From Lignipirellula cremea (lineage in GTDB: Bacteria > Planctomycetota > Planctomycetia > Pirellulales > Pirellulaceae), in NCBI RefSeq assembly GCF_007751035.1, contig NZ_CP036433.1, forward strand, positions 4,941,001 to 5,005,000: a DNA stretch of 64,000 bases, read 5' to 3'. The position numbers and the translations under genes were made by a program. Numbering within the stretch: the first letter of the stretch is position 1; each line of letters opens with the position of its first letter. The notes beneath the pieces are model-generated. The model had not been told where the DNA came from and did not search any database. It saw nothing but the letters and a program-made list of their open reading frames with translations. This document shows positions 28,012 through 30,687 of this stretch, piece by piece.

Positions 28012-29364
28012 TTACTCCGCGACGAAGGAAACGGGCCGAGCAGTTCCTTTTCGATCGACGGCCGTCAGCGTGACCTTGTCGCCTGGGTCCACGTTCATGC
28101 GGAACCAGACCAGGAACGGCCGACCAGTCAGCGGCGGGCTTTGGCCGTTCACCGCCGTCACAGTGTCCGTTGTGCGCAGCCCAGCTTTGTAGGCTGGCAA
28201 CTTCTGATGGTACTCGCCCATGAACGGCGCGATGGCCATTTTGTCGTCGGCGATTTTCAGCGTCTTCCTCAGGTTCTGATTTGCCTTAAGGGGGAAGAAT
28301 CCCGGGCCGCAGCCGATGTTTCCCTGCGAGATGCTTTGGCGCCAGCCCAGGTCGGTTTCGCGCCAGTCGCCCTTTACTTCGAGCACACCCTGGTGCAGTT
28401 TGTCGCCGCGTGTCCAGTACAGCGGAATCTGGCCGTCCCCTTTCGGTCCGCGATGCAGCACGCCGCGGAAGTCCGCCTGGCCAAACAGCCTCCGCTCTCC
28501 CGCCGCGGCCAGACTGTCGCCCGGTTGAACTCCAGCTTTTGCCGCAGGGCTGCCCGCATCGACCTGAGTCACCTTCAGGCCGTCGTCGCGGTCCAGCGTG
28601 ATGCCGACATTTTCCGGCAGGGGCCAGATTTGCGTGTCGAGCTTCTTGTCGAACGTATGGGCATCGATGGCCGGCTGTCGCAGGATATCCGAGACCTGAT
28701 GACAGTGGATGCAAGTCTGCTTCTCCGTCATGCTGGACTGCCACGACTTGTAGCCCGGCAGCGAGTCGGTCGGCGTCGGCGCTGTGGAGAAGTCAGGCAA
28801 CGGGCCGTCGATGTCCCACGCTTTCCGCTGGGGATGGTAGTGATGCTGCAGCACCCGCTTCATGGTGTTGGACAATGCCTCGATCGAGATCCGCGTGCTG
28901 TCGGAGACTTCATCGCGACCGCCGAAGATCGCGTAAATGCGACCCTCCGGCGAGACCAGATAGCCCCACCAGGACAGATCCAGATCCTGATAGCCTTCGA
29001 TCGGAAACAGACGCAGGTCGATATACCGCGCATCCGTGACACGCAGGGTGACAAATTGTCGCAGCAGCGGGTCAATTTCGGCGCCGCCTTCCAGCACATT
29101 CTTGTCAAAGTCCGCGCATTGTTTACAAGGCAGGCAGCGGAACGTAATGAAGAGCGGGCGATTCTCGGCGCGAGCGATGCGGAATGCCGTGCTGAAATTA
29201 TCCAGCCACACAACTTCAGATCGGGGCGCGGGAAGCGGGAACTCGCCATCTTCCGGCGTGAGCACTTCTTTCCAGGGCGCCTCCGCCCCGGCAGCTAACG
29301 ACGCCAGAAAAATCGAACAGGCAAGCAGGGACGTTGTTGTCGTAACCGACGACCAGCGAATCAT
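28012..29364 (-). CDS. Exported thioredoxin-like / CxxCH / PDZ protein
   Basis: The 450-residue product has a signal peptide (MIRWSS...ASLAAG) and then three modules. A thioredoxin-like domain (about 35-180) contains CLPCKQC at residues 77-83. A single CIHCH heme-c-type motif sits at 218-222. A PDZ domain lies at about 260-320 (LKVTQVDAGSPAAKAGVQPGDSLAAAG), with a second PDZ-like part near the end (HQKLPAYKAGLRTTDTVTAVNG). The start at 29364 has a GGAG site 7 bp upstream; a longer frame exists but looks non-coding. A redox role in envelope quality control would fit. The gene stands alone. Confidence 0.82.
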   Translation of the reverse strand: MIRWSSVTTTTSLLACSIFLASLAAGAEAPWKEVLTPEDGEFPLPAPRSEVVWLDNFSTAFRIARAENRPLFITFRCLPCKQCADFDKNVLEGGAEIDPLLRQFVTLRVTDARYIDLRLFPIEGYQDLDLSWWGYLVSPEGRIYAIFGGRDEVSDSTRISIEALSNTMKRVLQHHYHPQRKAWDIDGPLPDFSTAPTPTDSLPGYKSWQSSMTEKQTCIHCHQVSDILRQPAIDAHTFDKKLDTQIWPLPENVGITLDRDDGLKVTQVDAGSPAAKAGVQPGDSLAAAGERRLFGQADFRGVLHRGPKGDGQIPLYWTRGDKLHQGVLEVKGDWRETDLGWRQSISQGNIGCGPGFFPLKANQNLRKTLKIADDKMAIAPFMGEYHQKLPAYKAGLRTTDTVTAVNGQSPPLTGRPFLVWFRMNVDPGDKVTLTAVDRKGTARPVSFVAE

Positions 29365-29604
29365 TCCAGATCTCCAGGAAAAGGATGGTAAACATGCAAT
29401 CCGATCGTCGTCGAAAATACGGGACGATGCAAGCCGCAGGCAATCGTGGAGCAAAAGAAAAGACTTCGCCGTGCGGGCTTCCACCCTGGCCCACGGGATC
29501 TCTCGCACTTTCAAGGCATCGCCTTGAATTCCGGCAAATCTGCAGCCGATTACTGGAGTTGAATCCGGCATAAACGATTACCTATGAAAACTTTCGCCCC
29601 ATTA

Positions 29605-29632
29605 TTGCATCAACAGGCGAGGAGCGTATATT
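29605..29632 (+). promoter_or_regulatory. Candidate promoter of the small RNA
   Basis: TTGCAT (29605-29610) and TATATT (29627-29632) are separated by 16 bp, close to the housekeeping pattern, although the -35 box matches at only three positions. Transcription from it would begin near 29638-29640, directly before the first of three hairpins ending in a terminator. Confidence 0.45.
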
Positions 29633-29637
29633 GACCA

Positions 29638-29736
29638 GTCTCTTCTGGGCGATGCTCGCCCTTGGTGGCTAACGACTGCCCCGTTATGCCACTGGCCCGT
29701 GTGATTACTGCCCGATCACACGGGCACTTTTATTTC
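29638..29736 (+). ncRNA. Candidate small RNA with three hairpins and repeated loop sequence
   Basis: Three stems follow one another with almost no spacer. Hairpin 1: GGGCGA/TCGCCC with loop TGC (29647-29661). Hairpin 2: a 10-bp stem with one bulged T (29665-29674 with 29682-29692) and loop ACTGCCC. Hairpin 3: a perfect 11-bp stem (29695-29705 with 29715-29725) whose 9-nt loop TACTGCCCG contains ACTGCCC again, followed by ACTTTTATTTCTT. The last is a good intrinsic terminator. No coding gene precedes it on this strand. It may be a free small RNA, or an attenuated leader of the aldolase gene 180 bp downstream. Confidence 0.6.
29695..29736 (+). terminator. Rho-independent terminator
   Basis: A perfect 11-bp stem GCCCGTGTGAT/ATCACACGGGC with a 9-nt loop is followed by a T-rich tail. 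It has no protein gene upstream on the same strand and is best explained as the end of the small RNA. Confidence 0.75.
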
Positions 29737-29913
29737 TTGGCAGAGTTTCTGCCCGCCCGCTCTACAATCCCCTCCGGACAGACTTTATAAAGGCCACAGA
29801 TGCATGCCCCCGGGGTGCATGTCCCGTGCTTCCCCATGCGTCGACGCCGTGCTTCTGGAGTCAGGCTGCACGGGAGCCGTTTCCATCCGTCTGCCTGTTT
29901 GCTGGAAAAGATC

Positions 29914-30687
29914 ATGATCCCTTCATTTAAAGAACTCCTGGCCAGCGACGAACTGATCCGTGTGTTTGCCCTGGCTCGGATCCCGCATCCGATCATCGTA
30001 GAACACTACGCGCTGATTGGCGGCTATCACGGTTTCTGGATTGATCAGGAACACGGCGGCACAACCACGCAGGAAACGATCGTGCTTTCAATGGCGGCCC
30101 GCGCCAATGGAATGGACAGCTTTGTCCGCGTGGCGCCGGAAGGCTACTGGGCCGTCAGCCATGCTCTGGAAAGCGGAGCCGGCGGCGTAATGGGCGCGCA
30201 AATCCAGTCGGCCGAACATGCCGAAGAATTCGTCAGTTGGACGAAGTTCGCCCCCCGCGGAAAACGCGGCTTCAACACCAGCGGACGCGATGCGCAGTAC
30301 ACGCACAAACCGGCGGCGCAGTTTGCCGTCGACGCCAATCGGGATTCGTTCGTCTCGATCCAGATCGAAACGTTAGGCTCCCTGAACGAGGTCGATGCGA
30401 TCGCCGCGATCGACGGCGTTGATCTGCTTTTTGTCGGACCCGCCGACATGTCGCAGTCGCTGGGATGCGTGGGCCAGTATGAGCACGCCAAAGTCTGGGA
30501 GGCGATCGACGCCGTCGCCGCCGCTTGCCACAAACACGGCAAGCACTGGGGCACCCTGCCGGCGAGCGCGGAGTTTGCCCAGAAATCGCTCGACCGCGGC
30601 TGTCGCATGCTGACGCTGGGGAACGAAATGCTGGCCATGCGTCGCGGCCTGCAGGCAGTGAAAGACACCTTCGCCCAGTGCTTCTAA
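29914..30687 (+). CDS. HpcH/HpaI-type class II aldolase
   Basis: The family splits 2-keto-3-deoxy acids into pyruvate and an aldehyde with a divalent metal. The 257-residue protein has the TIM-barrel features of this family: GYHGFWIDQEHGG early, GAGGVMGAQIQSAEHAEEFV, the PRGKRGFNTS loop, VSIQIETLGSLNEVD with the metal-ligand glutamate, and VDLLFVGPADMSQSLG. The ATG at 29914 follows GGAAAAGATC. Relatives include 2-keto-3-deoxy-rhamnonate aldolase and hydroxyheptanedioate aldolase; which applies cannot be decided here. A small-RNA candidate with terminator lies upstream. Confidence 0.85.
   Translation: MIPSFKELLASDELIRVFALARIPHPIIVEHYALIGGYHGFWIDQEHGGTTTQETIVLSMAARANGMDSFVRVAPEGYWAVSHALESGAGGVMGAQIQSAEHAEEFVSWTKFAPRGKRGFNTSGRDAQYTHKPAAQFAVDANRDSFVSIQIETLGSLNEVDAIAAIDGVDLLFVGPADMSQSLGCVGQYEHAKVWEAIDAVAAACHKHGKHWGTLPASAEFAQKSLDRGCRMLTLGNEMLAMRRGLQAVKDTFAQCF

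Follow-up and report, generated by a model that had tools for sequence, protein, structure and literature searches.

What is encoded between two divergent genes of Lignipirellula cremea, where three predicted hairpins follow one another and two of them expose the same loop? A first-pass annotation of this DNA had proposed a small RNA whose repeated loop offers a double contact site for an RNA or a protein. Here, "the window" means the whole stretch that was analysed, 64,000 nucleotides of contig NZ_CP036433.1 (positions 4,941,001 to 5,005,000 of the forward strand), and all coordinates are counted from its first letter. The features at the locus are as follows.

28012–29364, minus strand: left neighbouring gene, divergent, with thioredoxin-like and PDZ domains; start codon inferred
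29605–29610, plus strand: −35-like box TTGCAT; paired with the −10-like box it gives the top score upstream of the element (8.5)
29627–29632, plus strand: −10-like box TATATT, 16 bases after the −35-like box
29638–29736, plus strand: predicted small RNA of about 97 nt; ends inferred from the promoter-like boxes and the terminator
29647–29661, plus strand: hairpin 1, 6 bp, loop UGC; not part of the twin-hairpin core modelled from relatives
29664–29693, plus strand: hairpin 2, 11 bp with one bulged U, loop ACUGCCC at 29675–29681
29695–29725, plus strand: hairpin 3, 12 bp including a closing U-G pair, loop ACUGCCC at 29707–29713
29728–29735, plus strand: U-rich tail UUUUAUUU
29914–30687, plus strand: right neighbouring gene, HpcH/HpaI aldolase family; start codon inferred

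Most of what the first-pass annotation had described at the locus was borne out. Three consecutive hairpins span 29647–29725 and are followed by ACUUUUAUUU, the loop ACUGCCC occurs identically in hairpins 2 and 3, and the element lies between divergent genes, the left one on the minus strand and the right one on the plus strand. No protein gene precedes the terminator on this strand, as the left gene is on the minus strand and no plus-strand reading frame of at least 60 amino acids covers the element. The loops and the order of the stems also stood, but hairpins 2 and 3 contain 11 and 12 pairs, not the 10 and 11 originally given. Hairpin 3 is the stem of an intrinsic terminator, which was detected by a scan of 29360–29930, and the sequence directly 3′ of it is ACUUUUAUUUCU. 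A comparison of fold energy with shuffled sequence, which had been recommended as a check, gave a minimum free energy of −45.6 kcal/mol for 29638–29737 (z = −6.8), and none of 200 shuffles was equally good. The raw energy is unexceptional, as 164 of 6390 100-nt segments from both strands of the same 64 kb fold as well or better. This, along with the quality of hairpin 3 as an intrinsic terminator, speaks for an explanation in which an ordinary terminator is accompanied by chance hairpins and the loop has no function. In the surrounding sequence, a small inverted repeat (GGCAGA-GTT-TCTGCC, 29739–29753) that includes a piece of the loop motif together with its complement was observed immediately 3′ of the terminator, and a GC-rich inverted repeat, TGCATGCCCCCGGGGTGCATG, lies at 29801–29821, in the interval that separates the small RNA from the aldolase gene.

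The promoter candidate of the element, TTGCAT-16-TATATT, is only partly supported: both boxes and their spacing are present, and transcription would be expected to start near 29639–29640, but the match to consensus is weak (three of six bases in TTGCAT and five of six in TATATT). With these scores the pair is missed by a simple promoter scan requiring at least 4/6 in each box and at least 9/12 in all, and that scan found no promoter in 29360–29930. Since the aldolase gene begins about 178 bases past the element on the same strand, the element could also be a cis-acting leader, that is, a regulated terminator (attenuator) of this gene. Against such a role, nothing comparable precedes the gene at 21 loci of other aldolase relatives: a scan of the 900 bases upstream at these loci for same-strand terminator-like hairpins of at least 11 pairs gave a single one (L038), with a different loop, and none with this loop. 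On the other side of the element, no counterpart adjoins the closest thioredoxin-PDZ relative, the only one of 29 loci looked at (L062).

Relatives of the element were not evident from primary sequence. With blastn against 60 relatives at E values up to 1, only matches of 16 to about 40 bases were obtained beyond its own locus, and the surroundings of 29 fetched matches, inspected by eye, contained no such loop pair. A covariance model built from the single sequence gave, in 241 genomes of the host family, one weak match in each of six others. Five of these six were folded and dismissed, four because they overlap reading frames and one (L055) as a terminator behind a reading frame. In the genome of L. 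cremea itself, the same model matched the locus and, weakly, one other place, which lies inside reading frames, and plasmid and phage collections contained no match to the element. A bare pattern of two ACTGCCC loops followed by TTTT occurred 30 times in 25 of the 241 genomes. The reversed pattern, used as a control, occurred 29 times by our own summation, so the count is not in excess, and this too favors an ordinary terminator with a meaningless loop.

Five of the loop-pair matches, including the original locus, nevertheless form a pair of hairpins in a row, each with the motif in its loop and the second followed by a T-rich stretch. Their stems are nearly all different, with 16 of 18 pairs changed on both sides in a hand alignment of shortened strings. 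The twin-hairpin model R2, built from these five loci, matched 76 of the 241 genomes at E ≤ 0.1, which is an upper bound because the weaker matches include ordinary terminators (e.g. L164, L168 and L186). R3, a model built from 20 real members, had matches at E ≤ 0.001 in 109 of 296 genomes sampled within the order, which fall in 68 of 122 genera. Across the phylum, it matched six of 246 sampled genomes, four of them in the same order, including L. cremea (the share of the order among the 246 is not given). The two matches outside the order were set aside, L207 as an ordinary terminator and L205 as doubtful. The search of planctomycete genomes with a covariation model, proposed with the candidate, thus yielded matches in many genera of the order and few outside, and the family appears to be largely confined to one order, inferred to be Pirellulales. 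Both models cover hairpins 2 and 3 only and say nothing of hairpin 1, and not all matches were inspected, as about 70 R2 places and about 50 R3 places were fetched (L123 is the same place as L109).

In the alignment of 20 members, 95.8% of the pair cells are standard and 17 of 18 pairs are changed on both sides, with a covariation score of 1.02 vs 0.25 for shuffled sequences and at most 0.16 when the partner was slid. These figures lean to the favorable side because the alignment was fitted to a structure model. The pair counts are also favored by the choice of the 20 rows, which were taken for carrying the motif more than once, and in one row (L143) the first model hairpin was put on a stretch with the loop GCTCCCCC and not on the motif hairpins. 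The computation shows that the stems of hairpins 2 and 3 exist and are held by compensatory change while the loop sequence stays constant, so the absence of conservation in relatives that would have refuted the original proposal was not found for these two hairpins.

Constancy of the loop was further examined in 101 terminator-like hairpins whose loop contains TGCCC, and 89 of them carry CTGCCCC. The TGCCC core was the selection criterion for these rows; the flanking Cs were not, but the models used to fetch the rows prefer them. The 101 rows represent 99 loci, some of which may be ordinary terminators, and they are not independent because many come from related genomes. Within each of four groups of rows that share neighbours, the stem columns vary and the loop columns do not. 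Among ordinary terminator-like sites, TGCCC loops occurred in none of 135 in 0.8 Mb of the L. cremea genome and in none of 203 in 0.8 Mb of a relative (G105), so ordinary terminators do not use this loop. These counts, the covariation and the near-restriction to one order stand against a functionless loop on an ordinary terminator, and covariation with a constant loop already counts against that explanation for the family; we consider it hardly tenable.

Promoter-like sequences and gene neighbourhoods were then compared across the family. The best upstream promoter-like score averages 7.5 (100 of the 101 elements) vs 5.5 in shuffled sequence and 4.4 downstream, with weights based on E. coli preferences, and 43 of 100 best −10 boxes begin 50–62 bases ahead of TGCCC. 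The orientations of the upstream and downstream neighbours (n = 96) are mixed: 31 −/−, 30 −/+, 22 +/+ and 13 +/−. The genes were called by a simple codon-position rule, and rows from related genomes are again not independent. The upstream gene is on the same strand in 35 cases, and the downstream gene in only 52, which further weakens the case for an attenuator of the aldolase gene, a role that we judge very unlikely. Mixed orientations favor an RNA that stands free of its neighbours over a leader, a gene terminator or a fragment of a 3′ end, and the computation shows that the element has neither a fixed neighbouring gene nor a fixed orientation. Promoter-like boxes before many members, together with varied neighbour orientation, make a stand-alone trans-acting RNA most likely. 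What is expected of a trans-acting small RNA is met by the terminator and the neighbour-independent position, and for the promoter by resemblance only, weakly so at this locus.

Several further regularities were observed around the family members. TGCGC occurs within 18 bases behind the stem and T tract in 51 of the 101 rows, often as TTTTTTATGCGC (for example in L135, L145, L191, L202 and L230), and may be part of termination in this order or of the RNA 3′ end. In one group with shared neighbours (group A), 11 of 13 members (L128, L129, L140, L141, L153, L155, L156, L160, L162, L172 and L196) have GCCGAT 70–85 bases ahead of the terminator loop; it may be the site of an activator or belong to a different type of promoter. 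In another (group C: L183, L185, L201, L212, L214, L220, L221, L222 and L243), the same two divergent gene families flank the RNA, an arrangement that recurs in several families of the order; in L201, the one example tested, no Pfam match was obtained for either neighbouring gene.

The number of loops per RNA and of copies per genome bears on what the loop may contact. At least one further motif hairpin upstream was detected by scan in 26 of the 101 rows, with two further ones in L143 and L166, and L194 maybe has three loops, as judged by eye. The double contact site suggested at the outset fits the repeated loop, given that the loop is present two or three times in other members, but the contacted partner has not been identified. 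The L. cremea genome carries one copy of the element, and R3 matched seven places in G298 and eight in G322, not all of which were inspected. Four of the seven in G298 (L193, L208, L209 and L210) were inspected and are twin-loop copies of similar make, in which the terminator stem is less regular. Elsewhere, L199 has two tandem terminator hairpins with this loop (1329–1362 and 1524–1555 in the numbering of that locus, about 195 bases apart), and a possible second copy beside L105 proved to be an ordinary terminator with another loop.

A repeated loop would suit a protein partner as well. The RNA might act as a sponge, in which a sequence-specific RNA-binding protein recognises the CUGCCCC loop and is titrated by multi-loop, multi-copy RNAs, in the way that CsrB-type RNAs titrate CsrA. 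The same loop two or three times in one RNA, several model matches in some genomes and a constant loop on free stems are all compatible with this, and so is the lack of enrichment of the loop complement at ribosome-binding sites (see below). A second loop upstream is missing in 75 of the 101 rows, an upper bound because the scan missed some (e.g. L165), which leaves few loops for a sponge. Sponges of the CsrB/RsmZ type that bind CsrA carry GGA in their hairpin loops; the loops here (UGC, ACUGCCC and ACUGCCC) have no GGA, so CsrA is not a likely partner. No candidate protein is known, and Hfq was the only one searched for. We regard titration of a protein as possible but rather unlikely.

Hfq (PF17209) was detected in none of 40 genomes of the order, L. 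cremea included, while five of 14 control genomes were positive, so the expectation for an Hfq-dependent trans-acting small RNA, that Hfq be encoded in the genome, is not met. The loop complement GGGGCAG is not enriched at ribosome-binding sites, with 0 seen vs 0.8 expected at 545 start sites of L. cremea and 1 vs 0.5 at 577 start sites of G105, and in the 64-kb window it occurs at chance level (14 seen, 14.3 expected). AGGAG is enriched 2.5- to 3-fold at the start sites, with 47 vs 15.8 expected in L. cremea and 40 vs 15.9 in G105. The shorter GGCAG is slightly raised in L. cremea (21 vs 12.8) and not in G105 (13 vs 11.5). Low counts of GGGCA at start sites were discounted, being no lower than further upstream once the dinucleotide expectation was used. 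The start-site samples cover about one tenth of each genome, with starts called by a simple rule. As the loop complement is not enriched where AGGAG is, a general blocker of Shine-Dalgarno sequences is unlikely, and anti-Shine-Dalgarno action is unsupported.

Small RNAs of the SmelA075 type go by the name of "cuckoo RNA". According to the available portion of their description, RFMSmelA075 and RFMSmelA099 of Rhizobiales contain three and four hairpins (two in a Rhodobacter relative), each with the same C-rich loop, on stems so diverged that the authors judged a covariance model inadequate; the loop, CCUCCUCCC, is described as anti-Shine-Dalgarno (PMC3927594). As far as that portion goes, the planctomycete element meets the likeness that was tested, the same loop in several hairpins with free stems. 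It differs in its loops (ACUGCCC here and mostly CUGCCCC in the family, not CCUCCUCCC), in the lack of enrichment of the loop complement at start sites and in phylum; sequence relation beyond the loops was not compared. For RepG of Helicobacter pylori, the accessible text reports that the C/U-rich loop of the terminator hairpin is the pairing site and targets a homopolymeric G-repeat (PMC8295292). The C-rich terminator loop is shared with our element, and RepG differs in using one loop against a G-repeat; this is an analogy without a claim of homology. LhrC of Listeria, in the part of the report consulted, has C-rich loops with redundant motifs that pair with G-rich mRNA sites without the need for Hfq (PMC4132741). 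It differs, again by way of analogy, in its motif (CUCCC/UCCC), in sites that include Shine-Dalgarno sequences and in its five almost identical copies (PMC4132741). On these partial descriptions, the element may work most like LhrC, RepG and the Rhizobiales small RNAs with repeated loops.

Our preferred explanation, held with moderate confidence, is that the element encodes a small RNA of about 97 nt that stands alone and acts in trans, from a family whose CUGCCCC terminator-loop seed pairs with a limited set of mRNAs; both transcription and pairing are inferred. The locus would be a small RNA gene with its own sigma-70-like promoter and intrinsic terminator. The constant part of the family would be a rigid hairpin whose loop presents CUGCCCC, twice in this genome and others and three times in some; in the members that were fetched, this hairpin is the terminator. 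Each loop may serve as a ready-made seed for G-rich mRNA sites (GGGGCAG and the like), putatively with no need of Hfq, for which these genomes gave no match, and doubling of the loop may provide avidity or allow two targets to be bound. A small set of mRNA targets remains the first choice and a loop-binding protein the second, with no target identified.

Rfam 15 gave no match above the curated threshold in the 64-kb window or in 20 member loci, and three matches in 29350–29950 (E 7.4 to 10) are far below threshold. Searches of the literature on planctomycete small RNAs, Rhodopirellula baltica non-coding RNA and Pirellulales small RNA brought up no description of the family, and a literature search for ACUGCCC returned no such bacterial RNA, by title, among the matches listed. 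The Rhodopirellula-1 motif, in what could be consulted of its report, is a candidate RNA from Planctomycetes and Proteobacteria, probably cis-regulatory and without an Rfam number (PMC2864571); it resembles our element in being a candidate RNA from Planctomycetes, and with no structure comparison, identity is not claimed. The available part of a 2022 survey counts eight annotated small RNAs in the Planctomycetes-Verrucomicrobia-Chlamydiae group vs 345 in Proteobacteria (PMC9029176). The element thus belongs to a family of repeated-loop small RNAs with a motif of its own, in a group with few annotated small RNAs; its transcription has not been shown. More tentatively, we propose an unrecognised RNA regulatory system in Hfq-less planctomycetes, in which CUGCCCC may be read by a protein or by GGGGCAG-type mRNAs, and one to three loops per RNA and one to about eight copies per genome may set its level. 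The seven-base loop can be mutated, which makes the family directly testable, and an RNA family to which the model found matches in 68 of the 122 genera sampled from one order, where no Hfq was detected in the genomes examined, would be a handle on RNA regulation in planctomycetes.
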